DNA from: an uncultured Dokdonia sp.
Lineage (GTDB): Bacteria > Bacteroidota > Bacteroidia > Flavobacteriales > Flavobacteriaceae
Length of the DNA: 32,945 bases
Direction: 5' to 3'
Assembly (NCBI RefSeq): GCF_937910895.1
Contig: NZ_CALEMI010000154.1
Coordinates: 1 to 32,945, forward strand
Below, in pieces: positions 13,746-30,392 of this stretch (position 1 is the stretch's first letter; every line of letters starts with the position of its first letter). The position numbers and the translations under genes were made by a program. Under the pieces are notes generated by a model that worked only from the letters and a program-made list of their open reading frames with translations, did no database searches and was not told the origin of the DNA.

Positions 13746-15137
13746 ATGCAAACTATCACTTCCTATATTCAGGAACACAAACAACGCTTTATCGATGAGC
13801 TGATCGAACTCTTAAAAATCCCTAGTATTAGTGCTGATTCCGCTTTCGCGAAAGCGACCTCACAAACAGCTACCGTAGTAGCAGACAGTTTAAAAGCCGC
13901 TGGATGTGACACCGTAGAAATATGCGAGACCCCCGGATATCCGATTGTATATGCTCATAAAATCATAGATCCGAATCTACCTACCGTATTGGTTTATGGT
14001 CACTACGATGTACAGCCACCAGATCCACTAGATTTATGGGATTCACCACCGTTTGAACCTGTCATCAAAAAGACAGAAAAACATCCTGACGGTGCTATTT
14101 TTGCACGTGGTGCCTGTGACGATAAAGGGCAAATGTATATGCACGTCAAAGCGATGGAATATATGACTGCAAATAATAAGCTGCCGTGTAATGTCAAGTT
14201 TATGATTGAAGGCGAAGAAGAAGTAGGAAGTGTCAACCTTGCTTGGTATGTAGAACGTAATCAAGAAAAACTAGCCAATGATGTGATCTTAATTTCAGAT
14301 ACAGGAATGATCGCAAATGATATTCCGAGTATCACGACAGGACTTCGTGGTTTAAGCTATGTAGAGGTAGAGGTGACTGGACCCAATCGTGATTTACATA
14401 GTGGTTTATACGGAGGAGCGGTCGCAAACCCAATCAATATCTTATCCAAGATGATTGCCTCGCTTCACGATGAAAACAACCATATTACCGTCAAAGGATT
14501 TTATGATAAAGTAGAAGAACTCACCGCTACCGAACGTGCAAAAATGGCGGAGGCGCCTTTTGATTTGGAGAACTATAAAAAAGCACTTGATATCGCTGCG
14601 GTATATGGAGAAAAAGGCTATACTACTAATGAGCGCAACTCCATACGCCCTACCCTAGATGTCAATGGAATTTGGGGCGGTTATACGGGTGAAGGAGCCA
14701 AAACAGTGATCGCTAGCAAAGCATTCGCAAAAATCTCTATGCGTTTAGTTCCACATCAAGATTGGAAAGAGATCACCGAATTATTTAAAACTCATTTTGA
14801 AGGCATTGCACCAGAAGGCGTGACGGTAAAAGTAACGCCACACCACGGAGGACAAGGGTACGTAACGCCTATAGACACCATAGAATATCAAGCCGCCGAA
14901 AAAGCGTATGAGAAAACCTTTGGCAAAACCCCTATCCCACAACGTAGTGGTGGGAGTATTCCTATCGTGGCTCTTTTTGAAAAAGAACTAAAAAGCAAAA
15001 CCATCCTCATGGGATTTGGCTTAGACAGCGATGCCATTCATTCTCCAAACGAACATTTTGGGGTTTGGAATTACTTAAAAGGAATCGAGACCATTCCGTA
15101 TTTTTATGAGTATTTTACGGCGTTGAAAAGCAAGTAG
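13746..15137 (+). CDS. M20-family dipeptidase/peptidase
   Basis: The 463-residue protein is a metal-dependent M20 peptidase of the CNDP/dipeptidase type. The first metal motif is LVYGHYDVQPPDPLDLW (His and Asp near 87-89). The second Asp is in GACDDKGQM. The catalytic Glu and next metal ligand are in MIEGEEEVGS. The dimerisation (lid) domain contains DLHSGLYGGAVANP, and a distal His is in DAIHSPNEHFG. It probably hydrolyses dipeptides in the cytoplasm. Residues about 36-40 (AFAKA) are written by a full copy of the palindrome CGCTTTCGCGAAAGCG, in the loop before the first helix, a place where family members vary. It ends in a strong terminator. Confidence 0.9.
   Translation: MQTITSYIQEHKQRFIDELIELLKIPSISADSAFAKATSQTATVVADSLKAAGCDTVEICETPGYPIVYAHKIIDPNLPTVLVYGHYDVQPPDPLDLWDSPPFEPVIKKTEKHPDGAIFARGACDDKGQMYMHVKAMEYMTANNKLPCNVKFMIEGEEEVGSVNLAWYVERNQEKLANDVILISDTGMIANDIPSITTGLRGLSYVEVEVTGPNRDLHSGLYGGAVANPINILSKMIASLHDENNHITVKGFYDKVEELTATERAKMAEAPFDLENYKKALDIAAVYGEKGYTTNERNSIRPTLDVNGIWGGYTGEGAKTVIASKAFAKISMRLVPHQDWKEITELFKTHFEGIAPEGVTVKVTPHHGGQGYVTPIDTIEYQAAEKAYEKTFGKTPIPQRSGGSIPIVALFEKELKSKTILMGFGLDSDAIHSPNEHFGVWNYLKGIETIPYFYEYFTALKSK
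13841..13856. repeat. Palindrome CGCTTTCGCGAAAGCG, copy 1 (perfect 16-mer)
   Basis: It lies inside the M20 peptidase gene and is read as AFAKA. Confidence 0.95.
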
Positions 15138-15165
15138 CATTTACTTTATAACTTTATAAAATGAT

Positions 15166-15203
15166 AAAATCCTTTAGATGAGCACAATCTAAAGGATTTT
15201 TTT
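15166..15203 (+). terminator. Terminator after the M20 peptidase gene
   Basis: AAAATCCTTTAGAT and ATCTAAAGGATTTT form a perfect 14-bp stem with a 7-base loop and a T-run. It separates the peptidase from the BlaI promoter. Confidence 0.9.
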
Positions 15204-15216
15204 GTTAAAGTTTTAC

Positions 15217-15257
15217 TCTACACTTGTAGAATTAAAATTTTATTCTACATTTGTAGA
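15217..15257 (+). promoter_or_regulatory. BlaI-type double operator containing the promoter
   Basis: Two 14-bp dyads, TCTACACTTGTAGA (15217-15230) and TCTACATTTGTAGA (15244-15257), have the TACAnnTGTA core of BlaI/MecI operators and lie 27 bp centre to centre. The TTG inside the first (15224-15226) and TACATTTG inside the second (15246-15253) are exactly 19 bases apart, which is the full Bacteroidetes promoter TTG-N19-TAnnTTTG. Repressor binding would cover both promoter elements. Transcription would start about 15258 and the ATG is at 15284. Confidence 0.85.
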
Positions 15258-15283
15258 GTTAATTCTAAAAAACGTAGAACCAC

Positions 15284-15655
15284 ATGGCATTATCTGCAGC
15301 AGAAGAACAATTGATGCAACTCCTTTGGAAACAAGAGCGTGCTTTTATGAAAGATCTCATAGATGCCTACCCAGATCCGAAGCCTGCTACGACAACCATA
15401 GCTACCTTATTGAAAAGGATGCAAGACAAAAATTTTGTAGACTATATTCAGTACGGACGTTCTAGAGAGTATTTCCCGTTAGTAAAAAAGACAGATTACT
15501 TTTCTAAACACGTAAACGGTCTCATTAAAAACTTCTTTAACGACTCTGCCTCTCAATTTGCTTCCTTTTTTACACAAGAAACAGATCTCAGCGAAAAAGA
15601 ACTTCAAGAATTAAGAGGTATCATAGACAGTCAACTTAAAAAGAAAAAGCAATGA
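15284..15655 (+). CDS. blaI: BlaI/MecI/CopY-family repressor
   Basis: The 123-residue protein has the BlaI winged helix (LSAAEEQLMQLLWKQERAFMKDLIDAYPDPKPATTTIATLLKRMQDKNFV, about residues 3-55; family members usually have KPxxxTVxTxLxRLxxKG), followed by a dimerisation part of helices (FFNDSASQFASFFTQETDLSEKELQELRGIID). It should repress its own operon through the two TACAnnTGTA operators just upstream. Its stop overlaps the start of the BlaR1-like gene (ATGA at 15652-15655), a sign of translational coupling. What inactivates it is presumably the BlaR1-like protease. In Bacteroidetes such pairs are frequent and often not linked to beta-lactam resistance. Confidence 0.92.
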   Translation: MALSAAEEQLMQLLWKQERAFMKDLIDAYPDPKPATTTIATLLKRMQDKNFVDYIQYGRSREYFPLVKKTDYFSKHVNGLIKNFFNDSASQFASFFTQETDLSEKELQELRGIIDSQLKKKKQ

Positions 15656-17847
15656 TCATTACCTACCTCATCAAAAGCACGTTGTGCCTAGCTGTCTTAT
15701 TTGGGTTTTATAAGATCGCATTAGAGGGCAAAGCATTACATCAGTTTAAGCGTTATTATTTATTAGCAAGTCTTGTGTTCTCACTTACCATCCCTTTAGT
15801 AACATTTACCTATACAACGACAGCAATGCCAGAAGATATCTGGGTAGAAAATTTTGTGACGGCTTGGGATCAAAGTCCTATAGCACCTACTCCTACTGTG
15901 GTAAAAAAATCAAAAACCAATTATCTTCCTTATGTGCTTTTGAGTATCTACGGCATAGGACTCTTTATTTTTGGAGGGCGTTTTATTTTAAATTTAATTC
16001 GCTTAAAGCGAAAAATCACGATGGCGGAAACCCATCCGCAACAGGGTTTTACGTTGGCACTCTTACAGCAGTCCATTGTTCCGCACTCGTTTTTGAAGTA
16101 TATTTTTCTTTCGCGAAAGCGGTATAAAAACAAGGAAATTCCCTCAGAAGTCATTGCACACGAAGCAACACACGTACGTCAAAAACACTCGTTAGACATT
16201 TTATTTATAGAATTTTTACAAGTGGTATTTTGGTTTAATCCGCTGTTTTGGATTGCAAAAAAATCTATAACTCTTAATCATGAGTTTTTAGCCGACCAAG
16301 GTGCCATACGAGAACAAAACAATATTTATCAATACCAACATATACTCTTAAGTTATGCGAGTAGTACTCATCATACTACCCTTGAGAGTCCATTTAATTA
16401 TTCATCAACAAAAAAACGAATCCTTATGTTATCACAATCATTTAACCGAAAACGACTCGCAATAAGCGCGTTATTATTGATCCCCATTTTTGCGGGCTGT
16501 GTCTTAGTTTTTAATCAAGGAATTATTGCACAACCAAATAATGATCTTGCCATAGAAGGGCACTGGATAGACAAAAAACACGAGAACACCAATGTTTCTA
16601 TTTATAAAGAAAATGATGTTTTATGGTGGGATATGAATAATAACAAAACACCTATCACTACTAAAAATGGCGAATATTATATAGATTTAGCTCCACATAA
16701 TAGAGCTATAGATAAAAAAATTAAATTATCTATAGAAAATGAGTTACTTAAAGTTGGTGATAGTATCTATTATATAGCTCCAGAAAACACTATAAGTCAT
16801 AGAATACATGGTATCTGGATGACTCCAGATGGCGACACCAAATACCACTTTAATGGTATAAACGGGGGTACTACCTGTGATGTCATTAATGTTTCAGAGA
16901 ATAAAAGCGCTCGGTATTATCCAGATCCTATTGACAATGGAATGACATTTACAATGGGATACGATTGGGTGACTTTTACTTTTGAAGGAGAACAACTTAT
17001 AACACAAGACGGGACCGAACTTCATCGTATTGAAAACTATTCTGTCTATAAAACAGAAACGCAACAAACCTCTACTACATACGCCAAAGATTTTGTAGAA
17101 GGTGCCGAAAGAAATGGAGAGAAAGCGCTTGTAATTGAAATAATGAACAAAACTGTTCGCGTTAACGGAAAAGCATCTTCGGTGGCAACACTTCGTAACG
17201 ATATTGATGCGGTTACTAAAGATTGGTCAAAGTCAGAATATATAGAAGGATATCCTTCTATACTGGTTAAAAATCCTGATAAAGAATTTCTTAAAAAACT
17301 AAATGAAGAGTTCTTAAAAACGAAGTATTCAAAAGCAAATGGAGGTATGGATTTATTACCACCACCTCCGCCACCACCGCCTCACGCTCCCGAAGCTCAT
17401 TCACCAGTAGCTCCTCCTGCACCACCTGCGCCTCCAGCGCCACCAAGTGTTGAAGATCATCTTAGGAGTATGAATAACATAGGAGGGGTGTTTTATTATG
17501 AGAACAAAGAAGTGCCTTTTGAAAAAGCGTTAAGTCTTGTAAAAACAAACAACAGTCTTAATGTGCAAACACGTTCTCCATACACCAATGCACCTAAGAC
17601 CTATATTTCTAAAGCACCTATTACCTTCTCTGCTCAGGATCAAAACAAAAAAATGATTACTAAGGAAGATATTAAGGTATATAATAAACTTGCGAAGAAG
17701 TACAACAAAAATCCTAACGGACAAATACTTAAAAAAGAGGTTGCTTTTATGTACGATATCTATAATAGAATGACAGAAAAGCAGAAGAAAAATGCTGAAC
17801 CGTATCCTGCTATTCCACCGCCACCACCTCATATTCCTGAAAAGTAA
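15652..17847 (+). CDS. BlaR1-like M56 membrane metallopeptidase with long extracellular tail
   Basis: The 731-residue protein has hydrophobic segments at about 5-20, 35-55 and 95-115, then the M56 zinc motif HEATH near residue 169-173, followed by NHEFLADQGAI near 210 for the further ligand, and another transmembrane helix at about 270-290 (LAISALLLIPIFAGCVLVF). The remaining 440 residues are outside. They show no penicillin-binding SxxK domain and end in a Pro-rich stretch (PPPPPPPPHAPE and PPAPPAPPAPP, about 567-600) and a C-terminal PAIPPPPPHIPEK. It probably senses an unknown signal and cleaves BlaI. A variant palindrome copy at 16108 is read as LSRKR just before the zinc motif. Confidence 0.88.
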   Translation: MIITYLIKSTLCLAVLFGFYKIALEGKALHQFKRYYLLASLVFSLTIPLVTFTYTTTAMPEDIWVENFVTAWDQSPIAPTPTVVKKSKTNYLPYVLLSIYGIGLFIFGGRFILNLIRLKRKITMAETHPQQGFTLALLQQSIVPHSFLKYIFLSRKRYKNKEIPSEVIAHEATHVRQKHSLDILFIEFLQVVFWFNPLFWIAKKSITLNHEFLADQGAIREQNNIYQYQHILLSYASSTHHTTLESPFNYSSTKKRILMLSQSFNRKRLAISALLLIPIFAGCVLVFNQGIIAQPNNDLAIEGHWIDKKHENTNVSIYKENDVLWWDMNNNKTPITTKNGEYYIDLAPHNRAIDKKIKLSIENELLKVGDSIYYIAPENTISHRIHGIWMTPDGDTKYHFNGINGGTTCDVINVSENKSARYYPDPIDNGMTFTMGYDWVTFTFEGEQLITQDGTELHRIENYSVYKTETQQTSTTYAKDFVEGAERNGEKALVIEIMNKTVRVNGKASSVATLRNDIDAVTKDWSKSEYIEGYPSILVKNPDKEFLKKLNEEFLKTKYSKANGGMDLLPPPPPPPPHAPEAHSPVAPPAPPAPPAPPSVEDHLRSMNNIGGVFYYENKEVPFEKALSLVKTNNSLNVQTRSPYTNAPKTYISKAPITFSAQDQNKKMITKEDIKVYNKLAKKYNKNPNGQILKKEVAFMYDIYNRMTEKQKKNAEPYPAIPPPPPHIPEK
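16108..16121. repeat. Palindrome copy 2 (CTTTCGCGAAAGCG)
   Basis: It lies inside the BlaR1-like gene and is read in another frame, as LSRKR. The left arm has lost its outer two bases. Confidence 0.9.
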
Positions 17848-17925
17848 AACATACGAAAATCGGATCAAAAAAGACTTTAAAGACATATAGCTTATAATCA
17901 CTACAAACAAAACTTCATACATTCT

Positions 17926-17950
17926 AAAACCCGCTTTCTTGCGGGTTTTT
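17926..17950 (+). terminator. Terminator after the BlaR1-like gene
   Basis: AAAACCCGC and GCGGGTTTT form a 9-bp stem with a TTTCTT loop and further Ts. Confidence 0.85.
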
Positions 17951-17996
17951 ATATATTTACATAGAAGTGATCTAAAAGTAATAAAACAAGTAAATC

Positions 17997-18093
17997 GTCA
18001 CCCTGAACCTGTCGAAGGGATGCATAATCAAAAGATTAAAAACTTCGACACGTGTTACACTGAGTTTATCGAAGAGCTCAGTTTGACAAACTA
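17997..18093 (+). repeat. REP-like intergenic repeat, copy 1
   Basis: About 97 bp built from GTCGAAG-type half-units in both orientations (CCTGAACCTGTCGAAGGG, AAAACTTCGACA, TTTATCGAAGAGCTCAG). It matches the reverse complement of 21508-21606; shared blocks include AAGATTAAAAACTTCGACA and GCTCAGTTTGACAAACTA. It lies just upstream of the serine hydrolase gene. Confidence 0.8.
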
Positions 18094-18134
18094 CATGAAC
18101 TTTTTTGAATCCTATTATACATAAATCATCAATC

Positions 18135-19850
18135 ATGACATTCAAATCAACTCTTCTTTCTGTTTTTCTAGTATTCGCTTTCGCGAAAGCGGTCTCAGGA
18201 CAAATCACAACACCACCCACATTCACTAAAATTACTCCAGAGCTTGCAGCAAAAGTAGACGCTGTATTTGCGGATACTGATAAAACAAATCATCCTGGAG
18301 CGGCTTTGGGCATCTTTAAAGATGGAGAAATCATTTACGCAAAAGGATATGGATATGCCAATTTAGAATATGACATCCCCATTTCATCTACCTCTGTCTT
18401 TCGAATTGCCTCTACCTCAAAACAATTTACAGCCGCCTGTATTGTCTTACTCGCGCAGCAAGGAAAACTATCCTTAGACTCGACACTAGACACCTTCTTT
18501 CCTGAATTTCCAAGCTATGCAAAAACAATTACGGTAAGACACCTTCTTAACCACACCAGCGGAATCCGTGATTATCTGGTTCTCGCTTCTCTCAGCGGAT
18601 TAGGAGATGAAGATTTTTATACGGATGAAGATGTTATGAAGTGGCTTGTACATCAAGAAGAGCTTAATTTCAAACCTGGCGATGAGCATTTATACAGCAA
18701 TTCTGGCTACTGGCTACTCGGTCAGATTGTTCAGAAAGTAACAGGAACATCGATGGCAGATTACGCCATGAAAGAGATTTTTAAACCTCTGGGGATGAAC
18801 AACACCCATTTTCACAACGATTATACGGCTATTGTAAAAAATCGTGCTTCTGGGTATTATCCTACACCAAATGGAGGTTTTCAAATCAGTATGACCACCC
18901 TGAATATGATTGGTGATGGTGGCATATTTACTACGATAGAAGATTTAAAAAAATGGGATGATGCGTATTATGATTCTAAAATTCTTACGGAAGATTTCTG
19001 GAAAACCATGACTACAACCACCATACTTAATGACGGAACGGCCAATGAATATGCTTCAGGTCTGGAGGTAGGCGTATATGATGGTCATAAAATCATAAGT
19101 CATGGCGGTGCCTTTGTAGGATTCCGTGCGCAAAAATTTCAATTTCCAGATGATCATTTTACCGTTGTTGTCCTTGCCAATCGAGGGGATGCCAATCCTA
19201 ACGAACTCGCCTCCAAAGTGGCTGATTTATTTTTAGATCCTATTGAGATCACTACCCCAAATGAAGATGAAGATGCTGTTGTTTCTAATACCGCTTTCGC
19301 GAAAGCAAAACCCATACAACTCCCAATAGCCGATCTTAAAAAACTAGAAGGATCGTATTGGAATGCAGATTCAAAAACCAGTAGAAACCTCACGCTTGTA
19401 AATGATACGCTAGTCTATGACCGCGGAAGTGGAAGAGTGACCAAAATGGAACCTGTTTCAAAAAATACATTTAGATGGATAGGCCCTGATATTCCTATTA
19501 AACTTACCATAGACAATCCAAACACACCCTCTGGTTTTACATTAGAGATTCCAGGACAAGGGGTTTTCAATTATAAAAAATATGAGCCTCTAAAACAACT
19601 TACAGCAACGCAATCACAGCAATACGAAGGCGATTATTACAGTAAAGAATTGGATGTGACCTATACTTTTAAAAAAGAAGATAACGGACTCACTTTATAT
19701 ATAAATGGAGAAAATCTTGCGCCTGTAGTGCCTATTATGAAAGACAAATTTAACGTCGCTGGATATATGACATTTGATTTTACAAAAGATCAGCAAGAAT
19801 TCAGAGCTTCTGCTGGACGTGTTCAAAATCTACGTTTTGTAAAGAAATAG
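18135..19850 (+). CDS. Serine hydrolase, beta-lactamase class C/DD-peptidase-like, exported
   Basis: The 571-residue protein has a signal peptide (MTFKSTLLSVFLVFAFAKAVSGQ). The penicillin-recognising fold has SxxK as STSKQ near residue 94-97, YxN as YSNSGY near 187, and HGG near 322 (SHGGAFVGF, the KTG-equivalent box). A C-terminal lipocalin-like or DUF3471-type region spans about 400-571. It probably cleaves an amide or ester bond in the periplasm or outside; true beta-lactamase activity is not implied. ATG at 18135 is preferred to one 30 bases upstream because it places the signal peptide at the N-terminus. Two palindrome copies fall in the gene, one of them inside the signal peptide. Confidence 0.88.
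   Translation: MTFKSTLLSVFLVFAFAKAVSGQITTPPTFTKITPELAAKVDAVFADTDKTNHPGAALGIFKDGEIIYAKGYGYANLEYDIPISSTSVFRIASTSKQFTAACIVLLAQQGKLSLDSTLDTFFPEFPSYAKTITVRHLLNHTSGIRDYLVLASLSGLGDEDFYTDEDVMKWLVHQEELNFKPGDEHLYSNSGYWLLGQIVQKVTGTSMADYAMKEIFKPLGMNNTHFHNDYTAIVKNRASGYYPTPNGGFQISMTTLNMIGDGGIFTTIEDLKKWDDAYYDSKILTEDFWKTMTTTTILNDGTANEYASGLEVGVYDGHKIISHGGAFVGFRAQKFQFPDDHFTVVVLANRGDANPNELASKVADLFLDPIEITTPNEDEDAVVSNTAFAKAKPIQLPIADLKKLEGSYWNADSKTSRNLTLVNDTLVYDRGSGRVTKMEPVSKNTFRWIGPDIPIKLTIDNPNTPSGFTLEIPGQGVFNYKKYEPLKQLTATQSQQYEGDYYSKELDVTYTFKKEDNGLTLYINGENLAPVVPIMKDKFNVAGYMTFDFTKDQQEFRASAGRVQNLRFVKK
18176..18191. repeat. Palindrome copy 3 (perfect 16-mer)
   Basis: It encodes AFAKA in the last part of the signal peptide of the serine hydrolase. 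Confidence 0.95.
19292..19306. repeat. Palindrome copy 4 (15 of 16)
   Basis: It is read as AFAKA in the linker between the catalytic and C-terminal domains of the serine hydrolase. Confidence 0.95.
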
Positions 19851-20084: not shown

Positions 20085-21188
20085 ATGATACAAAAATTTT
20101 TCATTCTCTGTTCTGGAGCAGATAGAGATGTGTTAGACACGTGTTCTCGTGGCGAAAAAAACAAATACGCTGGTATAGGAGCCACCGTATTTTTTACAGC
20201 AGTTCTAGCCGCTATTGCAGCCACATACGCCTTATACACCATCTTTGACAACGTATACCGAGCTATTCTTTTTGGGATGCTTTGGGGTCTTGTGATTTTT
20301 AATCTAGATCGTTTTATTGTATCTACGCTGAAGAAAAGAGACAATTGGTGGCAGGAATTTGGTATGGCAGTACCGCGATTGATATTGGCAGTGATTATTG
20401 CCATTGTGATTTCAAAACCATTGGAACTTAAGATTTTTGAAAAAGAAATTGATCGGGTGATGCTAAGCCAGAAAAACGAATTTACGGTTCAGAATCAAGG
20501 GGAGATTCTAGCAGCATACACGCCAGAAATCAACAAACTAGATACCGAAATTACCGCGATTAAAGATGAGATTACGACCAAAGAAACCGAAGTCAATAAC
20601 CTCTACGAAATCTACATTGCCGAAGCTGAAGGCACGGCAGGCACAGAACTTTTAGGCAAAGGCCCTGTCTATCAAGAAAAACGAGACAAGCATGATGCTG
20701 CGCTCATCGAACTGACCGCTCTTAAAGCAACGGGTGCTGATAAAATCGCTTTCGCGGAAGCGGAAAAAACACGACTCAGAGATGAATTTAACACCGCGGT
20801 AAGCACAAGCCAACCGATCATTAATAACTTTGACGGACTCATGGCGCGTATAGACGCGATGAAAGAATTGCCATGGCTTCCGTCTTTATTTATATTTCTA
20901 TTATTTCTTGCTATAGAAACCGCTCCGATATTTTCAAAATTGATTTCTCCAATGGGAGAATACGATATAAAACTAGCCGACCACGAGGCTACTATCAAAG
21001 CGTGGAGTGCTCAAAAAGCAGCACAACGTAAAATATTGACAGAGACAGATCATATTTTAAATGATCGAATCTATACAGATATTGCCAATGAAGAAGAGTT
21101 GTATAGCTATAAGAAAAAGATGGCAAAAGAAATTATGAAGCGACAGCAAGATGCCTTTTATCGTAGGCAAACAAAAATATTAGGATAG
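20085..21188 (+). CDS. DUF4407 membrane protein
   Basis: The 367-residue protein fits DUF4407: a short N-terminal FFILCSGADRDVLDTCSRGEKNKYAGIGATVFFTAVLAAIAA region, helices at about 27-47 and 60-78 with FNLDRFIVST, a further helix at about 100-115 (PRLILAVIIAIVISKPLEL), a long coiled coil (about 125-250), and a last helix near 265-285 (LPSLFIFLLFLAIETAPIF). The function is unknown. It is a single-gene unit followed by an inverted-repeat terminator. A near palindrome copy with one mismatch at 20747-20762 is read as AFAEA in the coiled coil. Confidence 0.85.
   Translation: MIQKFFILCSGADRDVLDTCSRGEKNKYAGIGATVFFTAVLAAIAATYALYTIFDNVYRAILFGMLWGLVIFNLDRFIVSTLKKRDNWWQEFGMAVPRLILAVIIAIVISKPLELKIFEKEIDRVMLSQKNEFTVQNQGEILAAYTPEINKLDTEITAIKDEITTKETEVNNLYEIYIAEAEGTAGTELLGKGPVYQEKRDKHDAALIELTALKATGADKIAFAEAEKTRLRDEFNTAVSTSQPIINNFDGLMARIDAMKELPWLPSLFIFLLFLAIETAPIFSKLISPMGEYDIKLADHEATIKAWSAQKAAQRKILTETDHILNDRIYTDIANEEELYSYKKKMAKEIMKRQQDAFYRRQTKILG
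20747..20762. repeat. Palindrome copy 5 (one mismatch, CGCTTTCGCGGAAGCG)
   Basis: It lies in the DUF4407 coiled coil and is read as AFAEA. One base is changed, making Lys into Glu, possibly a decaying copy. Confidence 0.8.
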
Positions 21189-21206
21189 CCAGATAATAAG
21201 GAATAA

Positions 21207-22201: not shown

Positions 22202-23281
22202 TTAAAAAGATGCTAAAGCATCTAATAACACCTGTAAATCAGCTTCGGTATTAAAATATTGAAAACCTACACGCACGCCGTCCCCTCTCAAAATACACGT
22301 GATTCCTCGTTCGTTAAGATGTTTTGCAAGCGCTTTATCCCCTTTTAAATTAAAAATAGACGAATGTGCTGTGCGTTGTACAACGGCATCTTCAAGTAAA
22401 CCACGTTCTGTAAAAGCAGTTTTTGCTTTTGTCGCGAGTTCTTGAATGCGTTCTTCTATCGTTTCCATTCCTATCTGATTGATCAAATCGATGGCTACAC
22501 CAAGGCTGCCGTAGTTAAGTGTATCCTGATGTCCTGGTTCAAAACGTCCTAAAAAACTTCCTTCCTGTGCTTTATATTTTCCTTGTAAAGAATTGAATCC
22601 TGTTGTTTTTGGGAACACCTTTTTGGCGACAGCTTCTTTAAAAAGAAAGATCGCATTGCCATAGCCTGCATTCATCCATTTATAACAACTCCCGCCCATC
22701 ACATCAAAAGCAGATGTATCAAAATCAAAAACTTCGGTGCCAAAATATTGTGTAGCATCGGCAAAAAATAAGGTGTCGGGATACGTCGCTTTCAGTCGTT
22801 TTAGGAATTCAAAATCTATTTTGATTCCGTTGATGTATTGTACGGCAGAAAATGCGAATATATCTGGTGGCGCTTTCGCGAAAGCGGTCTCCACATGTTG
22901 CTCCAAATCCCCATCAATTTGTGTGTATGTAATCTCAAAATCACGCGACTCAAATGGCCAATTGACCGAAGGATAATCTTGTTCTAATAACAATACTTTT
23001 TGAAGCGTAGGCACTCCTTCTAAAAGTGTATTAAATCCGTACGAAAAGTTAGGCACCAGTGCCACGCGATTGGGTGCACAAGAAAATAACGTTCCTACTT
23101 TCTCACGTACCGCCGTGAGTGCTGGACCCCGATTGTCTTTGATCGCGCTTCCCATCATAAAAAAATCGAAGTCGTGTTCCTGTCTGTATTCCAATACAGG
23201 CAAAGGCAACACTCCTGAAGCGGGTGTATTGAGGTACGTACATTGTTTGGTAATTGGAAAGTATTTTTTATAAGCGGTCAT
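22202..23281 (-). CDS. Class-V-like PLP-dependent aminotransferase/desulfurase family protein
   Basis: The 359-residue protein has the class-V PLP fold: LNTPASGVLPLPVLEY at the start, a cofactor region VALVPNFSYGFNTLLEGV, the Asp that contacts the pyridine ring in FFADATQYFGTEVFDF, and the PLP lysine in GGSCYKWMNAGYGNAIF near residue 200. The usual class-V SxHK box reads SCYKW. There is no catalytic Cys loop, so it is more likely an aminotransferase or lyase of the kynureninase/isopenicillin-epimerase-like subgroup than a cysteine desulfurase. A full palindrome copy is read as AFAKA near residue 134. It is divergent from the 2TM/DHFR unit. Confidence 0.85.
   Translation of the reverse strand: MTAYKKYFPITKQCTYLNTPASGVLPLPVLEYRQEHDFDFFMMGSAIKDNRGPALTAVREKVGTLFSCAPNRVALVPNFSYGFNTLLEGVPTLQKVLLLEQDYPSVNWPFESRDFEITYTQIDGDLEQHVETAFAKAPPDIFAFSAVQYINGIKIDFEFLKRLKATYPDTLFFADATQYFGTEVFDFDTSAFDVMGGSCYKWMNAGYGNAIFLFKEAVAKKVFPKTTGFNSLQGKYKAQEGSFLGRFEPGHQDTLNYGSLGVAIDLINQIGMETIEERIQELATKAKTAFTERGLLEDAVVQRTAHSSIFNLKGDKALAKHLNERGITCILRGDGVRVGFQYFNTEADLQVLLDALASF
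22871..22886. repeat. Palindrome copy 6 (perfect 16-mer)
   Basis: It lies in the class-V PLP enzyme gene and is read on the minus strand as AFAKA. Confidence 0.95.
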
Positions 23282-23339: not shown

Positions 23340-23786
23340 ATGGGATTATTTTCAAAAAAAACACCTCCTGCTATTGACCAAGAACAACGCGTATTAATCG
23401 AAAATGCACAGGCTCGGATTCGTCAGAAAAAGAAATTATATCGTCACTTCGTACTTTTTTTGGCAGGTGCTGTTTTGATGATTATTATCAACCCCGTGCT
23501 AGGCATCGGAAAGGAGATTACACTTTTTGGATACGACTGGTTTATGTGGGCAATTTTAGTATGGTCTTTTTTCTTTTTAGCGCACGTCATCAATGTATTT
23601 GTGATGAATCCTTTTATGGGCAAAGCCTGGGAAGAAGAGCAAATCAATGCTTTGGTAAAAAAACAACAAGATAGAATTGCTGAGTTAGAGGAAAAAGTGG
23701 CTGTAGAACATCCATTACCAGAAAAAAAAAGCATCACCATCACCTCAGAAACAGCCGCTACGATAGATCCCGATTCTCCCCTATGA
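23340..23786 (+). CDS. 2TM-domain membrane protein
   Basis: The 148-residue protein has two helices (HFVLFLAGAVLMIIINPVLG and WFMWAILVWSFFFLAHVINVF) separated by a short FGYDW link, flanked by a basic RIRQKKKLYRH and a C-terminal GKAWEEEQINALVKKQQDRIAELEEKV coiled coil. This is the 2TM domain family, common in Bacteroidetes and of unknown function. Its last codons overlap the ATG of the DHFR gene by 4 bases (ATGA), so the two are translationally coupled. It starts 58 bases from the divergent PLP enzyme gene. Confidence 0.85.
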   Translation: MGLFSKKTPPAIDQEQRVLIENAQARIRQKKKLYRHFVLFLAGAVLMIIINPVLGIGKEITLFGYDWFMWAILVWSFFFLAHVINVFVMNPFMGKAWEEEQINALVKKQQDRIAELEEKVAVEHPLPEKKSITITSETAATIDPDSPL

Positions 23787-24265
23787 TCACGATGATTGCT
23801 GCTGCGGCAGAAAATAATGCTTTGGGTAAGGACAATGACCTTGTATGGCATTTACCAGACGATTTTAAACGTTTTAAAACCCTGACCACAGGACATCATA
23901 TTATTATGGGTCGTAAGACGTGGGAGTCGTTTCCAAAACCATTACCTAACCGTACGCACTTGGTCATTACCCGTAATAAAGACTACAAAGCTGAAGGCGC
24001 TACGGTGGTACATACGATGGAAGATGCACTCGCTTTCGCGAAAGATGACTCGAATGCTTTTATTATAGGCGGTGGTGAGATTTACACCATCGGACTCGAT
24101 TACGCCACGCATATCGAACTCACCCGAGTTCACAGCACTTTTGAAGCTGATGCTTTTTTTCCAGAGTTCAGTACAGACGAATGGGAGTTGCAAAAAAGTG
24201 TGTTTCATGAAGCAGATGACAAGCATAAATTTGGGTTTACGTATGAGACGTGGAGAAGGAGGTAG
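23783..24265 (+). CDS. folA: Dihydrofolate reductase
   Basis: The 160-residue protein carries the DHFR signatures: MITMIAAAAENNALGKDNDLVWHLPDDFKRFKTLT (the substrate Asp in HLPDD), GHHIIMGRKTWESFPKPLPNRTHLVITRN for NADPH binding, and AFIIGGGEIYTIGL. It reduces dihydrofolate to tetrahydrofolate with NADPH in the cytoplasm. Length and domain order are normal. A palindrome copy is read as LAFAKDD near residues 85-88, in the loop before the GGGEIY strand. It overlaps the 2TM gene by 4 bases and has no separate promoter in view. Confidence 0.97.
   Translation: MITMIAAAAENNALGKDNDLVWHLPDDFKRFKTLTTGHHIIMGRKTWESFPKPLPNRTHLVITRNKDYKAEGATVVHTMEDALAFAKDDSNAFIIGGGEIYTIGLDYATHIELTRVHSTFEADAFFPEFSTDEWELQKSVFHEADDKHKFGFTYETWRRR
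24031..24044. repeat. Palindrome copy 7 (14 of 16)
   Basis: It is in folA and is read as AFAK. The right end has diverged (AAAGAT). Confidence 0.9.
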
Positions 24266-24879: not shown

Positions 24880-24960
24880 GTCGCTTTGCTCTGATTGATG
24901 CTGGATGCTGGAAGTTTAGGAATTAGAATTTTTTGAGATTTATTTTTTTGAATTTAAAAT

Positions 24961-25012: not shown

Positions 25013-25042
25013 TTTAAAGTAAGCTTTGATGGGGTTTTTTTT

Positions 25043-25057
25043 GCTTTCGCGAAAGCG
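25043..25057. repeat. Palindrome copy 8 (15 of 16, intergenic)
   Basis: GCTTTCGCGAAAGCG lies in the gap upstream of fabD, outside any gene. Confidence 0.9.
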
Positions 25058-25113
25058 CACATCATATAAAAGAATCAAGAGACAAGACCGCTTCGCTCCA
25101 AGACTCACGACTC

Positions 25114-25176
25114 AAGACCAAAGACCAAAGACCAAAGACCAAAGACCAAAGACCAAAAAGCAAAGACCAAAGACCA
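25114..25176. repeat. Nine tandem copies of AAGACCA
   Basis: Eight perfect units and one variant (AAAAGCA, 25156-25162) lie head to tail. They are preceded by degenerate copies and placed just upstream of the fabD -7 element. Confidence 0.95.
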
Positions 25177-25202
25177 ATTTACAGACAACACAAAACTTTC
25201 AG

Positions 25203-25210
25203 TATTTTTG
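25203..25210 (+). promoter_or_regulatory. fabD -7 element
   Basis: TATTTTTG matches TAnnTTTG 25 bases before the ATG at 25235. No TTG is found 19 bases upstream, where the tandem repeat ends. Confidence 0.5.
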
Positions 25211-25234
25211 CACGTACAACTAAACAAACCACAC

Positions 25235-26122: not shown

Positions 26123-26190
26123 AAGGGATTAAACCTCAGCAAGCTCTGGACACTAAAAATCGACTCAAGGGTCAAGGTATTACATCATAA

Positions 26191-26265
26191 ATCTCACTGA
26201 AAAGTGGGATGAGTTCAACTACCTATTTTGTATGCGTCTTTCAGACTTTACAAAACAGCGTTTAA
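26191..26265 (-). repeat. Interspersed intergenic repeat with terminal hairpin, copy 2
   Basis: Inverted copy of 21268-21343. The minus-strand reading contains AAACGCTGTTTTG, TCTGAAAGACGCAT, CAAAATAG and TAGTTGAACT and ends in ATCCCACT / AGTGAGAT. The G-C pair of copy 1 is A-T here, and one further pair is a G-U wobble on the plus-strand RNA. Confidence 0.75.
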
Positions 26266-26268
26266 CAA

Positions 26269-26295
26269 AAAAAGCCCGGCAGTGCCGGGCTTTAA
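26269..26295. terminator. Strong bidirectional terminator between fabD and the lipoprotein gene
   Basis: AAAGCCCGGC and GCCGGGCTTT form a 10-bp GC-rich stem with loop AGT between convergent genes, with an A-run on one side. Confidence 0.9.
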
Positions 26296-26313
26296 GTTCG
26301 TGTTGATCAACTA

Positions 26314-26646
26314 CTAATTATCATCAGTAGTTGTTTCAACTTTTATTTTAGTGTTTTTAACAGCTTTTTCAGCATCATTGGCAGCATCTTTTATAGCATT
26401 TCCAGTGTTATCTACTGCATCTCCTACAGCATTAGCTGCATCTTCAATTGCGTTACCTGTTGCATCTGCAGCATTTTCAATAGCATCACCTGTTGCATCT
26501 GCAGCATTTTCAATAGCATTACCCGCTTCATTTGCAGCGTTTTCAATAGTATTCTCTGCATTTTCAGAATTTTCTTTTACTTTTCTACAAGAAGTAATGT
26601 TAAAAATCAATGCTATAGCAGCAATACTTAAAAAAAATCTTTTCAT
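26314..26646 (-). CDS. Small lipoprotein with 11-residue helical repeats
   Basis: The 110-residue protein has a lipobox (ALIFNITSCRK, Cys at 20). Residues about 30-95 are then a run of 11-residue units around NAADATGDAIE, as in LEA-like or apolipoprotein-like amphipathic helices. It is rich in Ala, Asn and acidic residues and has a Lys-rich tail. It is probably anchored to the outer or inner membrane with a long helix in the periplasm. The function is unknown; a stress or envelope role is only suggested by the LEA-like pattern. A TAATTTTG -7 element (26686-26679 on the minus strand) lies upstream, with a 10-bp dyad over the -33 region. Confidence 0.8.
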   Translation of the reverse strand: MKRFFLSIAAIALIFNITSCRKVKENSENAENTIENAANEAGNAIENAADATGDAIENAADATGNAIEDAANAVGDAVDNTGNAIKDAANDAEKAVKNTKIKVETTTDDN

Positions 26647-26678
26647 TTCGTTATATATTTTGACGATTAGTTAATAGG

Positions 26679-26719
26679 CAAAATTAACATATAAATCCTA
26701 ATTAAATAATTAATTAGGA
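26679..26719 (-). promoter_or_regulatory. Promoter of the lipoprotein gene with a dyad over -33
   Basis: TAATTTTG (26686-26679) fits TAnnTTTG. TCCTAATTAA (26696-26705) and TTAATTAGGA (26710-26719) form a perfect 10-bp inverted repeat with a 4-base spacer where the -33 element should be, a candidate operator. Confidence 0.5.
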
Positions 26720-26797
26720 CGAATGTTTTGTTTTTACCGATGAAATACCCAAATAACACCTTTAAAAACATATTTAGCTTCTAAGTTTTGCTTTATA

Positions 26798-26895
26798 TAC
26801 GTTTGCATATACCTTCTGGATCGCTACTTATATAGAAATGATGGAAATATCCCCAATAAATTACTAGGAAATATTCCAAAATTTCTTATATTTCC
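26798..26895 (+). promoter_or_regulatory. Promoter and candidate operators of the XRE-S24 regulator
   Basis: TACGTTTG (26798-26805) fits the -7 element. Downstream lie GGAAATAT (26843-26850), the same 8-mer 24 bp further on (26867-26874, inside GGAA-ATA-TTCC), and its inverse ATATTTCC (26888-26895), ending 3 bases before the ATG at 26899. Self-regulation through these boxes is an inference. Confidence 0.5.
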
Positions 26896-26898
26896 CAA

Positions 26899-27669
26899 AT
26901 GGGAGCAAATGAATTACCTTCGGAAATACGTCGTTTTAAAGAAATCCGCGAAGATCATGACTTTACACAGTCTGAATTTGCAGCACAATTAGGGATTAAA
27001 CATTCTACGGCAGATATAGAACGTGGTCGCACCAAACTTTCTGGACAGGTGGTCACCGAGTTATTACGCCTATTTCATGTGAATCCGTTGTGGTTATTTG
27101 GTTATAGCAATCAAAAACATTTGAACACTCATAGTGGAGATATAAGCCCCAAAGTGGTGATTGTAGATAAGGACGATCAGGAAAACATGGTGTTGGTCAA
27201 TCAAAAGGCAGCTGCTGGGTATCCCAATAATATTCAAGATGTAGAGTGGTATCAAAAACTTCCTGCATTTGACCTCCCGTTACCACAATTTCGCAATGCT
27301 ACCTATCGTGGTTTTCAAGTAGAAGGAGATAGTATGCTTCCTAATTTTAGACCTGATGACTGGGTGCTTGCTAAAGGCGTAGAGAGTCTTGACTATGCCA
27401 GTGACAACAAAGTATATGTGGTAGTCATGCAAGATGCGGTGGTGGTAAAAAAACTACAAAAATTACCTGATTCATCAAAAGTATTATTAGTCTCTCTTAA
27501 TGAAGAATATGTTCCTTATGAGGTATTTGTAAGTGATATTCAAGAAATCTGGCAGGTCAATAGCAAACTTACTTTTAATATAGATATCGGCTCAGAACAT
27601 ACGTTGCTACGCGAATTACAAGCATCGATGCAAGAGTTAAAAAGTCAAATCAAAAACCTAAATACGTAA
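26899..27669 (+). CDS. XRE-type HTH regulator with S24 (LexA-like) peptidase domain
   Basis: The 256-residue protein has an HTH (RRFKEIREDHDFTQSEFAAQLGIKHSTADIERGRTKLSGQVVTELLRLF, about 10-62). An S24 peptidase domain follows, with AAAGYP near 104-108 as a possible self-cleavage Ala-Gly site, the catalytic Ser in GFQVEGDSMLPNFRPDDWVLAKG near 145 and the Lys in VVVKKLQKL near 184. Such regulators are typical of SOS-like or phage repressors; in Flavobacteria they also occur as chromosomal genes without a prophage, as here. It ends in a coiled coil (LQASMQELKSQIKNLN). The gene is 7 bases upstream of DUF2461 and is probably co-transcribed with it. Confidence 0.88.
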   Translation: MGANELPSEIRRFKEIREDHDFTQSEFAAQLGIKHSTADIERGRTKLSGQVVTELLRLFHVNPLWLFGYSNQKHLNTHSGDISPKVVIVDKDDQENMVLVNQKAAAGYPNNIQDVEWYQKLPAFDLPLPQFRNATYRGFQVEGDSMLPNFRPDDWVLAKGVESLDYASDNKVYVVVMQDAVVVKKLQKLPDSSKVLLVSLNEEYVPYEVFVSDIQEIWQVNSKLTFNIDIGSEHTLLRELQASMQELKSQIKNLNT

Positions 27670-27676
27670 ATACCGC

Positions 27677-28333
27677 ATGGGGTTTCCTGAATTATTCAAC
27701 TTTTTAGAACGTTTACAACTAAACAATACAAAAGAATGGATGGATCTCAACCGCAAAGAATATCAAGCGGTGCGTTCTTTTTTTATAGGTTGGTTAGATG
27801 AACTGAATGCAAAACTTGCTACGGTAGATCCTGAGTATTTTGACACGCCTGGAAAAAAAGCGATCAATCGGATTAATAATAATTTGATGTTTGCGCCTCA
27901 TAAACCTATTTATAAAGATCATTTTGGTGCGGGTCTTGACCAATTAACTAAGCAAGGAGATTTTTACATTGAAATGGGATTGAAGCAATGCCTACTTGCA
28001 GGAGGATTTTGGCGTCCTGAAAAATCCATTTTACGTAGTATCCGAGATGCTATAGATTATAATGGAGACGAACTAATTGCCATTATTGAAAAACCTTCTT
28101 TCAAAAAAATGTTTGGAGGTCTCTATTACGATGATCCATTAAAAACCGCTCCTAAAGGCTTTTCAAAAGAGCATCCATATATTGACTTATTACGACGCAA
28201 AACATTTGCTGTGGAGATGACGCTTTCGCGAAAGCAAATACTAGATTCTCACTATCAGGAATATTGTATTGAAGTGTACTTAGAAATGCTTCCTTTTAGA
28301 CGCTACTTACGAGAGGCAGTAACGGTACAATAA
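27677..28333 (+). CDS. DUF2461 family protein
   Basis: The 218-residue soluble protein matches DUF2461: LFNFLERLQLNNTKEWMDLNRKEYQAVR at the N-terminus, INRINNNLMFAPHKPIYKDHFGAGL (the conserved R/N and YK region), FYIEMGLKQCLLAGGFWRPEKSILRSIRDAIDYN, and PKGFSKEHPYIDLLRRKTFAVEM. The function is unknown. It follows the XRE-S24 gene after 7 bases. A palindrome copy is read as TLSRKQ near residues 184-187, just after the conserved core. It is followed by a terminator. Confidence 0.88.
   Translation: MGFPELFNFLERLQLNNTKEWMDLNRKEYQAVRSFFIGWLDELNAKLATVDPEYFDTPGKKAINRINNNLMFAPHKPIYKDHFGAGLDQLTKQGDFYIEMGLKQCLLAGGFWRPEKSILRSIRDAIDYNGDELIAIIEKPSFKKMFGGLYYDDPLKTAPKGFSKEHPYIDLLRRKTFAVEMTLSRKQILDSHYQEYCIEVYLEMLPFRRYLREAVTVQ
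28221..28235. repeat. Palindrome copy 9 (15 of 16)
   Basis: It is in the DUF2461 gene and is read as LSRK, not the AFAKA frame. Confidence 0.95.
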
Positions 28334-28373
28334 CAAAGTATGCGAGACTATCATGATAATCTAAAATAGTACG

Positions 28374-28397
28374 AAAGAGACATTAAAAGGTCTCTTT
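28374..28397 (+). terminator. Terminator after DUF2461
   Basis: AAAGAGAC and GTCTCTTT form an 8-bp stem with an 8-base loop, followed by a T-rich run that leads into a palindrome copy. Confidence 0.75.
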
Positions 28398-28405
28398 GTT
28401 ATTTT

Positions 28406-28419
28406 CTTTCGCGAAAGCG
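28406..28419. repeat. Palindrome copy 10 (14 of 16, intergenic)
   Basis: It lies between the DUF2461 terminator and the rplU promoter. Confidence 0.9.
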
Positions 28420-28442
28420 GTGTAAAAAAATATTTACTGTTA

Positions 28443-28472
28443 TTGTAAATTAATAGATTAGTGGTATATTTG
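28443..28472 (+). promoter_or_regulatory. rplU-rpmA promoter
   Basis: TTG (28443-28445), 19 bases, then TATATTTG (28465-28472): a perfect TTG-N19-TAnnTTTG. Transcription should start about 28478, giving a 5' UTR of about 45 bases before the ATG at 28524. Confidence 0.85.
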
Positions 28473-28523
28473 CACCCGCTTAAATCGAAAGATTGAGTTA
28501 ATTTTAATCATTAATTAATCGCT

Positions 28524-29225
28524 ATGTACGCAATTGTAGAGATAGCAGGGCAGCAATTTAAAGTTGCAAAAGACCAGAAAGTCTTTGTACACCGCCTAAC
28601 AACCGAAGAAGGAAAAGAAGTGTCTTTTGACAATGTTCTTTTAATCGGTGACGGTGACAAAGTAACGATCGGCGCCCCGGCTATAGACGGAGCTCTAGTA
28701 GGAGCAAAAGTCATTAAGCACCTTAAAGGTGACAAAGTAATCGTTTTCAAGAAGAAAAGACGTAAGGGATACCGTGTTAAAAACGGACACCGCCAGTCTC
28801 TTACTGAAATCGTAATCGAAAGCATCACTGCTTCTGGAGCTAAGAAAGCTGCTCCTGCAAAAAAGGCTGAACCAAAGGCTGCCGCTCCTAAGAAAGAAGC
28901 TGCTCCTAAGGCAGAAGCTAAAAAAGAAGCACCAGCCAAGAAAGAAGCACCAGCCAAGAAATCGGCTATAAAAGGAGATGATCTTAAGAAAATCGAAGGT
29001 GTAGGTCCTAAGGCTGCAGAGGCTATGGTAAATGCTGGAATGGACACTTTTGCAAAAGTAGCAAAAGCTAAGCCAGAAGCTATCGAAGCTATTTTAGCTG
29101 AAGCAAGTTCTGGACTTGCATCACTAGTAGCTAATACTTGGCCAGAGCAAGCAAAATTAGCTGCAGCTGGTAAGTGGGATGAGCTTAAAGAATTACAAGA
29201 CAAATTAAACGGGGGAAGAAAATAA
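28524..29225 (+). CDS. rplU: Ribosomal protein L21 with C-terminal HhH extension
   Basis: The 233-residue product has a normal L21 domain at residues 1 to about 100 (MYAIVEIAGQQFKVAKDQKVFVHRL, VIVFKKKRRKGYRVKNGHRQ). An Ala/Lys/Pro linker follows (about 108-150, EAAPKAEAKKEAPAKKEAPA), then a helix-hairpin-helix-type domain (GDDLKKIEGVGPKAAEAMVNAGMDTFAKVAKAKPEAIEAIL) and an Ala-rich tail. Most bacterial L21 proteins have about 100 residues; long versions of this kind are known in Bacteroidetes. The core binds 23S rRNA domain I in the large subunit. It is co-transcribed with rpmA, 57 bases downstream. Confidence 0.95.
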   Translation: MYAIVEIAGQQFKVAKDQKVFVHRLTTEEGKEVSFDNVLLIGDGDKVTIGAPAIDGALVGAKVIKHLKGDKVIVFKKKRRKGYRVKNGHRQSLTEIVIESITASGAKKAAPAKKAEPKAAAPKKEAAPKAEAKKEAPAKKEAPAKKSAIKGDDLKKIEGVGPKAAEAMVNAGMDTFAKVAKAKPEAIEAILAEASSGLASLVANTWPEQAKLAAAGKWDELKELQDKLNGGRK

Positions 29226-29282
29226 TCTTTCACCAAAGTATAATAAATCCTGATTTTATTCAGGATAAAAAACCGAAACAAG

Positions 29283-29543
29283 ATGGCTCATAAAAAAGGA
29301 GTTGGTAGTTCTAAAAACGGTCGTGAATCACAATCAAAGCGCTTAGGTGTTAAGATTTTTGGTGGCCAAGCTGCAATTGCAGGGAACATCATCGTACGTC
29401 AAAGAGGATATACACATCACCCAGGTGAAAATGTATATGGTGGAAAAGATCACACACTTCACGCTTATGTGGATGGTGTTGTAAAATTCACTAAAAAGAA
29501 AGATAACAAATCCTATGTTTCAATCGTACCGTTTGAAGCATAA
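29283..29543 (+). CDS. rpmA: Ribosomal protein L27
   Basis: The 86-residue protein begins [29 protein letters not shown] and contains [23 protein letters not shown], the invariant L27 signatures. It is a large-subunit protein whose N-terminal tail reaches the peptidyl-transferase centre. There is no cleavable Firmicutes-type N-terminal extension. It follows rplU in the usual L21-L27 pair and ends in a strong terminator. Confidence 0.98.
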
Positions 29544-29568
29544 GTACTTTTTTTCCTTATAAACAAAC

Positions 29569-29602
29569 AAAAACCCTTTTCAAATTGAAAAGGGTTTTTT
29601 TG
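29569..29602 (+). terminator. Terminator after rpmA
   Basis: AAAACCCTTTTC and GAAAAGGGTTTT form a 12-bp stem with loop AAATT and a T-run. Confidence 0.92.
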
Positions 29603-29658
29603 TGTATTTCATTTAATAGTGTCGCTGATTTTATATTTCAAAATGCAGCAACTCCAGT

Positions 29659-29696
29659 TAGGCTTGCCTATCTCGACAGGCAGTCGTAAAAGCCTA
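29659..29696. terminator. Nested hairpin at the end of the DUF6503 gene
   Basis: TAGGCTT (29659-29665) pairs with AAGCCTA (29690-29696), enclosing TGCCT / AGGCA. It overlaps the DUF6503 stop codon (29694-29696). Confidence 0.4.
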
Positions 29697-30392
29697 CTCT
29701 TGTAGTAGTTTATCGGTTCCTAAATACCCATCATCTTTATTGTAATACCACGCACGGTCTTTAGGCATTTTAATACCTTGCACTTCGACTTCATCTGTAA
29801 GTAGGATATATTCTCCTGTGGTTTCATCGGGACCTTTAAAAAACTGATACACTTCCATCGCGTACGTAGTTGGATCAAAATAAAATTGCCAAATATCAGA
29901 TCCTACCGCTTCATCATAGGTTACTTTTAGCACTAGATATTCTTTTCCTTTAAAGTTTTTCTTCTGTACGATAGGATCGATATGTGTGCCTGAGTCTTTA
30001 AGTTTCATTGGGAGTCCGTAGAGGTACGTATAATAATTTTTAAACATAACTGTACGCTCACAGGTTTCGTCTGAAGTTGTAGTTTCAGTTGTAGTCGTAT
30101 CTTCATTTGAAAAGCGACAGTTGGTGGCACGTATTTCGCGAAAGCTAATCTTCCCATCTTGGATAGTAGAAACATTAAAGTATTGCTCAGGCAGATTGAT
30201 GGAAATGGTACTTTTACGTTCTTTCCCGCCGGGTGTTTCTAAGACAACCGTAAAGCCTCCAGCAAATGTTTGCCAATTTCCTTGTGGATCATGATACGCT
30301 ATTGCTTTTTCTAGGACTTGGTTTGCCGTTACCGTTTGTCCTACTATTGTAAAAGAAATACATATTAATAAAAATGTAAAAATAGTTTTCAT
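29694..30392 (-). CDS. Exported DUF6503 family protein
   Basis: The 232-residue protein starts with a signal peptide (MKTIFTFLLICISFTIVGQTV), and the mature part is a beta-rich domain. It has a conserved VLEKAIAYHDPQGNWQTFAG start, a Thr/Glu-rich loop (NEDTTTTETTTSDETCER) with two cysteines, and YYTYLYGLPMKLKDSGTHIDPIV. This pattern fits the DUF6503 family found in Flavobacteria, of unknown function. ATG at 30390-30392 is preferred to an upstream start because it gives the signal peptide and avoids overlap with the next gene. A palindrome copy is read as SFREI near residue 84. Confidence 0.8.
   Translation of the reverse strand: MKTIFTFLLICISFTIVGQTVTANQVLEKAIAYHDPQGNWQTFAGGFTVVLETPGGKERKSTISINLPEQYFNVSTIQDGKISFREIRATNCRFSNEDTTTTETTTSDETCERTVMFKNYYTYLYGLPMKLKDSGTHIDPIVQKKNFKGKEYLVLKVTYDEAVGSDIWQFYFDPTTYAMEVYQFFKGPDETTGEYILLTDEVEVQGIKMPKDRAWYYNKDDGYLGTDKLLQE
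30134..30145. repeat. Palindrome copy 11 (12 of 16)
   Basis: TTTCGCGAAAGC is in the DUF6503 gene, read in the third possible frame on the minus strand as SFREI. It is the last copy seen in the window. Confidence 0.8.

Follow-up and report, generated by a model that had tools for sequence, protein, structure and literature searches.

Recombination hotspots, DNA uptake and chromosome positioning have all come to light through words that are kept hundreds of times per genome. Chi is a short asymmetric word read by RecBCD or AddAB; parS, matS and the SlmA and Noc sites are confined to, or excluded from, the origin or terminus regions; and the mobile repetitive extragenic palindromic (REP) and Rickettsia palindromic element (RPE) palindromes gain their copies via insertion. 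The DNA uptake sequences (DUS) and uptake signal sequences (USS) of Neisseriaceae and Pasteurellaceae are clade-specific, occur in hundreds of copies or more, are commoner between genes and carry extended flanks, and the cyanobacterial highly iterated palindrome HIP1 (GCGATCGC) is strongly over-represented clade-wide with its deviants at outer positions (PMC4390886). Here we describe a palindrome related in kind to these words, in a 32,945-nt contig of an uncultured Dokdonia sp. (Flavobacteriaceae; assembly GCF_937910895.1, contig NZ_CALEMI010000154.1, positions 1 to 32,945, referred to hereafter as the window). Its core is the 12-bp word CTTTCGCGAAAG, and its full unit is a 16-mer palindrome containing this core; we found no earlier description of it, the inner 10-mer occurring in ten papers and the three longer forms in none within our literature search. 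We see about an even chance that it is the duplex binding site of a putative dimeric chromosome-maintenance protein, and it is confined to a handful of related genera that include cultured members and have complete genomes, which makes the function of highly iterated palindromes directly testable.

Abundance and clade distribution

The window holds eleven copies of the palindrome, nine with the exact core (starting at 13843, 16108, 18178, 19294, 22873, 24033, 25044, 28223 and 28406) and two with one core mismatch (20749 and 30133); three of the eleven are perfect 16-mers. These are the eleven copies at 13841–30145 that an earlier, sequence-only reading of this DNA had reported, and its view that they do not arise by chance holds: at up to three mismatches the 16-mer was observed 10 times, against a mean of 0.09 in 100 dinucleotide shuffles. 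The source genome (4.81 Mb in 169 contigs) contains 922 cores and 549 perfect 16-mers, where the reversed control words occur once (core) and not at all (16-mer), and all 17 other Dokdonia genomes searched carry 383–937 cores each. More detailed statistics were taken from an 820-kb sample (a quarter of the chromosome, with ~3 kb masked) of genome G016, which we take to be the D. donghaensis type strain DSW-1, itself sequenced by PacBio (CP015125; PMC4974333); gene calls throughout are simple open reading frames (ORFs). This sample has 232 cores, where an order-4 Markov model expects ~0.2 (464 versus 0.40 on both strands), and raising the order to 5, in a model fitted to the sample itself with its pieces of the word, still gives an expectation of 43.7 against 464 on both strands, less than one tenth. 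The Markov comparison proposed by the sequence-only reading is thus far exceeded, and the likeness it drew to HIP1 is borne out by this gross genome-wide over-representation.

Beyond Dokdonia the palindrome is restricted to few genera. Among 397 genomes of the family, six exceed 400 cores (two Dokdonia, three of a genus labelled g11, and genome G230), and the other 391 have 0–21. Genus g11 is probably Nonlabens; the alignment of its genome G027 over 1912 bp with named Nonlabens loci, versus 460 bp with Dokdonia loci, weakly supports this assignment. A scan of 84,980 species returned, among the matches listed, at least 103 stretches, of which 83 belong to Dokdonia or Nonlabens, 5 to Flavobacteria bacterium BBFL7 and 15 to scattered others. 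Seven 20-kb stretches from outgroup genera gave no 10- or 12-base palindrome seen three times, and in two of them other repeated words are present. A plasmid search with window DNA or motif gave no match, and a phage motif search gave only two Mycobacterium prophages (17-base match, E 4), both searches being rather insensitive to a word of such short length.

An RpoC tree of 27 genomes (one gene, drawn with a midpoint root) places Nonlabens, G230 and seven Dokdonia in a single clade (98/98), which also includes the palindrome-poor G184, sister of the carrier G230 (97/94); this topology demands two changes, either a gain and then a loss or two separate gains. G184 and G368, both of genus g164, have 13 and 8 copies, and words at up to one mismatch number 58 and 49, versus 19 and 13 for reversed controls. 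Such near-copies would suit a decaying remnant and an apparent natural loss of the palindrome, a reading that is suggestive only because four genomes outside the clade show a like excess (33 versus 10, 32 versus 9, 49 versus 11 and 32 versus 5). A loss in g164 would be useful for finding the protein that reads the word.

Architecture, spacing and conservation of the unit

The unit extends well past its core. Half-sites in D. donghaensis have the expected first base beyond the core in 99% of cases and the expected second in 86%, with T/A preferences next, and the flanks are skewed symmetrically: on the left G exceeds C to nearly 30 bp and T exceeds A to ~20 bp, the right side is reversed, and no skew is seen beyond 30 bp (left-flank G/C ratio 2.6 at 3–10 bp, 3.3 at 11–20, 1.5 at 21–30 and 1.1 further out). 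The conserved unit is best described as 16 bp with ~25 bp of skewed flank per side, past which no longer element was found. The skew is alike in genic and intergenic copies and is present in a Nonlabens set (48 loci, 5 of them from BBFL7), some loci of which were chosen for containing a 16-mer, inflating the conservation of their inner bases; it is weak in 18 copies from G230.

Deviation from the word is close to all-or-none, with 284 sites at 0–3 mismatches to the 16-mer versus ~1 in simulated sequence, and 23 versus 12 at four and 102 versus 92 at five. One-mismatch cores number 47 against the 232 exact ones, and, as in HIP1, these deviants are biased to the first and last positions: 29 of the 47 are changed at the outermost core position, as are 82 of 114 one-mismatch words from stretches (some overlapping) of four Dokdonia species. 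The central CGCG is as invariant as most arm positions.

Copies are spread evenly round the D. donghaensis chromosome, at ~1 per 3.5 kb (mean 5.7 per 20 kb, variance 3.4). The origin was placed near 0.74 Mb by parS-like words and GC skew, and copies show no evident bias towards origin or terminus in this species; a site linked to either was rejected on the evenness of the density. Spacing is more regular than random, with a coefficient of variation (CV) of 0.70 versus 0.91 ± 0.05, and short intervals are depleted: 16 of 191 fall below 1 kb versus 57.9 ± 5.4 expected with the genic/intergenic class of each copy kept. The first 225 kb of the same chromosome, which partly overlaps the sample, agrees (3 of 66 intervals versus 16.7), as does G230 from another genus (0 of 63 versus 8.6 expected; CV 0.71 versus 0.98). 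Density summed over four species does not clearly differ between core and accessory DNA (46 copies in 185.7 kb versus 183 in 694.3 kb).

With respect to genes, 118 of the 232 D. donghaensis copies lie outside called genes, although genes cover ~91% of the sequence. The intergenic copies sit close to stop codons, at a median distance of 27 nt to a 3′ end versus 55 at random, and avoid gene starts (91 versus 68 at random), and 21 copies lie in divergent gaps. The 114 genic copies are divided 62/29/23 among the three frames. The window is organised similarly, with nine genic and two intergenic copies (25044 and 28406) by the ORF list, read as AFAKA or its AFAEA and AFAKD forms six times (frame 1), as LSRK twice and as SFREI once. 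The proposal that selection acts on the DNA and not on a peptide, made from these same three frames and peptides, is supported in D. donghaensis as well; codon bias or peptide selection was rejected, with three frames used and half of the copies between genes.

Conservation was followed in 39 coding and 23 intergenic copies from 220 kb of G016, a set shared by three comparisons. Aligned coding copies are kept exact in 31 of 35 cases (G006), 29 of 34 (G008) and 29 of 33 (G009), far above control 12-mers, of which 10–18% are kept in coding sequence (10.7% in the G006 comparison, where flank identity is 0.77); for aligned intergenic copies the figures are 6 of 11, 8 of 12 and 8 of 12, versus 18–22% of controls (18% for G006). 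Changed copies among Dokdonia are mostly single substitutions, with some gaps. An orthologue could be aligned for seven G230 coding copies, and in five of these cases D. donghaensis has a copy no more than 24 nt away, once in another frame. In the window, more distant relatives aligned at 13843, 16108, 19294 and 20749 carry other bases at unchanged length, and at 18178 two relatives are aligned, one with the word and one with gaps; the remaining six copies have no aligned orthologue. Comparison of orthologues, as the sequence-only reading had advised, thus finds copies kept in place, with copy-less relatives usually showing other bases over the same length, and its suggestion of a self-propagating mutational pattern is, as a sole explanation, unlikely, since conservation at orthologous places so far exceeds that of control words.

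Alongside these comparisons we observed that G008, mostly 85–96% like G006, is ~97% identical to D. donghaensis over ~20 kb (L242 and neighbours in G008 versus L240 in G016), a block whose sequence points to recent recombination between the species.

A candidate chromosome-maintenance site and its alternatives

In the reading we favour, a dedicated dimeric DNA-binding protein would recognise the duplex palindrome all round the chromosome and serve in its maintenance, most likely in organisation (the palindrome acting as an evenly spaced anchor) and possibly in recombination or repair. Judged from the one gene tree, the palindrome was probably gained once, in an ancestor shared by Dokdonia, Nonlabens and one related genus; copies would then have settled where genes are least disturbed, just past stop codons or in tolerant stretches of peptide, and selection would have kept them, an additional copy within ~1 kb of another bringing no benefit, or harm. 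Reading of the duplex by a symmetric protein, rather than of a hairpin, is favoured because the centre is invariant, and even spacing together with presence everywhere suggests a function that the chromosome requires at intervals along its length. Somewhat short of even, in our estimate, is the chance of the more specific picture of a landmark placed every few kb (the 16-bp palindrome within a ~70-bp symmetric G/T–A/C element) that has a putative reader, is unrelated to methylation or uptake, and serves either architecture, as an anchor, or recombination, as a two-way handover site.

Close precedents are parS and the Noc, SlmA and matS sites, where a dimeric chromosome protein binds a palindromic duplex, as it would at the Dokdonia palindrome; parS even shares its TTTC...GAAA arms. 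Unlike them, the Dokdonia palindrome is found in hundreds of copies everywhere, with even density and no regional bias, and D. donghaensis has separate parS-like words (L262). A nucleoid-protein or recombination site had been among the suggestions of the sequence-only reading; both survive our comparisons, and a binding site is what we prefer.

Several results weigh against a chromosome-maintenance site. No binding protein was found and the reader is putative; by the family-wide counts, most genera do without the palindrome; and two closely related phages of a Nonlabens-type host (35.0 and 34.0 kb) have no copies, even at two mismatches. Conservation is lower between genes than within them, and 11–12 of the 23 intergenic copies could be aligned. 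Of ten Nonlabens coding copies, a single one is matched in position by a D. donghaensis copy, and that one in another frame. Nor were nearby replacements seen for missing copies in 51 cases from 12 ordered species pairs, the sites of missing copies lying a median of 2165 bp from the nearest copy versus 1033 bp for a random position; evenness is thus not seen being restored.

Among the alternatives, the one that survives best, though we think it unlikely, is a signal for DNA uptake or self-recognition that would mark kin DNA for import and spread through biased uptake and recombination in the manner of DUS and USS. High copy number, clade specificity, skewed flanks, conservation and the preference for spots just past stop codons would all be expected of such a word, the ~20-kb block shared by G008 and G016 would be one of the long homologous stretches exchanged between Dokdonia species, and the two Nonlabens-host phages lack it; even spacing, too, was claimed for uptake words by Karlin et al., a claim that is quoted and disputed in PMC1939737. 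The same paper describes DUS as non-palindromic, unlike the Dokdonia word, and DUS reception employs a type IV pilin (PMC12616744). Among 14 genomes (13 carriers plus G184), five have the type II/IV secretion or pilus ATPase (PF00437) above cut-off, all 14 having weak sub-cut-off matches, and it falls below cut-off in the complete D. donghaensis, G006, G008, G009 and G230, in a search that did not cover other pilus genes; pilus-type uptake is disfavoured because PF00437 passes cut-off in so few genomes, though other uptake machines may be at work.

A by-product of DNA methylation and methyl-directed mismatch repair, as conceived for HIP1, is less probable again. Methylase sites are far shorter than a 16-bp palindrome with flanks, and the Dokdonia word is twice as long as HIP1 and has a long skewed flank. 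CGCG alone is not enriched in D. donghaensis (934 in total, 702 of them outside the core, versus 1040 expected); TCGCGA is enriched outside exact cores (79 versus 48 expected), mostly because near-copies contain it. Methylase genes were sought by family: PF00145 occurs in 8 of 18 Dokdonia and is absent from 10, including the complete G004, G006 and G009; PF01555 passes cut-off in 1 of 18 Dokdonia genomes; PF02086 occurs in 7 of 12 genomes and is absent from G006, G008, G009, G230 and G281; and PF02384 was found in each of the 15 Dokdonia and Nonlabens genomes searched, thus in 15 of 16 carriers, being absent from the complete carrier G230 (where PF00145 and PF01555 were not searched). Methylation, which the sequence-only reading had offered, is disfavoured because no one of these four families is present in all carriers tested, each being missing from complete carriers (PF07669 and rarer families were not searched), although a common PF02384 methylase is possible for Dokdonia and Nonlabens, G230 being the sole genome without one. 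What speaks for it otherwise is the resemblance to HIP1, likewise an over-represented palindrome with outer deviants (PMC4390886).

We give similarly low credence to a palindromic Chi-like site, at which a helicase–nuclease resecting from either side would hand over to RecA on a G/T-rich strand. The Dokdonia word resembles Chi in its density of one per few kb, its over-representation and its spread over the whole chromosome, and is absent from the two phages examined. Whichever strand is read, G/T-rich sequence precedes the palindrome on its 5′ side, and RecA prefers TGG-type, Chi-resembling sequence (PMC3763553). Unlike Chi, it is long and, being palindromic, has no orientation, and a reader of single strands has no need of a 16-bp duplex palindrome.

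An RNA or DNA hairpin (terminator, processing site or cruciform) is very improbable. The word does fold as a 6-bp stem with a CGCG loop, a 28-base extended form folds better than 200 of 200 shuffles, copies prefer gene 3′ ends, and 6 of the 80 words with two mismatches carry pair-preserving double changes, a little more than the 3% that a uniform draw would give and not decisive. Against this, the bases that would form the loop vary as little as those of the stem, the 16-mer itself folds no better than shuffles (z −0.94), the two flanks past position 5 match one another no more than composition gives, and the 3′ side is A/C-rich rather than a T run, and the 21 copies in divergent gaps also count against a hairpin signal. 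Least probable of all is a small mobile palindromic element of the REP or RPE kind inserting itself, for which the many near-identical copies, half of them genic, and the few places differing by gaps between species could be cited (18178 is gapped in one relative), and which is mostly refuted by orthologue alignments with substituted bases at constant length (13843, 16108, 19294 and 20749) and by the want of anything longer than the skewed flank.

Copies outside the clade, and the setting of the copies in the window

Copies also occur in viral and probably transferred DNA. One viral contig, which encodes a terminase, portal, sheath and baseplate, carries 7 copies in the 27.9 kb covered, and one with an integrase carries 4 in 18.5 kb; these contigs (L154, L171 (IMGVR 3300040781_000495) and L139) were found via the palindrome itself, which biases their density, and they fit temperate phages residing in palindrome-rich chromosomes. 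Genome G118, otherwise almost palindrome-free, has a copper-resistance island with four intact copies (L333 1640–18165), whose genes, by annotation of L333 only, include an efflux pump, a multicopper oxidase and a P-type ATPase. The same 933-bp pair of copies recurs in three other palindrome-poor genera (L334, L336 and L337), with ORFs of like lengths in L337. The island probably came from the Dokdonia/Nonlabens clade, and the palindrome may thus act as a tracer of gene transfer.

In the window, the perfect 16-mers are at 13841..13856, inside an M20 peptidase gene (13746–15137), at 18176..18191, close to the start of a beta-lactamase-family gene (18105–19850), and at 22871..22886, inside an aminotransferase gene (22202–23281, minus strand), each encoding AFAKA. 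Exact cores with one outer change lie at 19292..19307 (AFAKA, in the same beta-lactamase-family gene), 25042..25057 (intergenic) and 28221..28236 (LSRK, in a DUF2461 gene at 27677–28333); those with two are at 24031..24046 (AFAKD, in an ORF at 23783–24265) and 28404..28419 (intergenic). The copy at 16106..16121 has an exact core and a differing left outer arm and encodes LSRK within an M56 peptidase gene (15652–17847); in this gene ARAGORN also calls a tRNA-Ile (tat) at 17000–17085, probably falsely. The mismatched cores are at 20747..20762, reading AFAEA in a DUF4407 gene (20085–21188) and found with the identical mismatch in four other Dokdonia genomes, and at 30133..30144 (ATTTCGCGAAAG), inside an ORF at 29694–30440 (minus strand).

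The absence of copies from the two ends of the window, which had been remarked on earlier, is confirmed as such, with none before 13843 or after 30144 at up to one mismatch, and is statistically weak on its own. The probability of no copies in 12.72 kb is 0.087 at the mean density of the source genome and 0.027 at that of D. donghaensis, so the lack in the left 12.7 kb is weakly improbable (0.03–0.09) and suggestive only, and the stretch after 30,145, at 2.8 kb, is too short for any meaning. The mobile-looking, copy-free segment (1..12722) runs through RND/OEP efflux, HlyD, cation efflux, FUR, ParB_N and DUF932 genes to a tRNA-Leu, and is probably an acquired element. A 140-nt direct repeat (89%; 10291–10430 and 12341–12480) flanks the ParB_N gene (10542–12338). 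A second, partial tRNA-Leu 5′ half (12839–12882) adjoins the intact tRNA-Leu (12722–12804), possibly the trace of an integration. At 4105–8508 a single ORF of 1467 aa represents an RND pump fused with an outer-membrane efflux domain.

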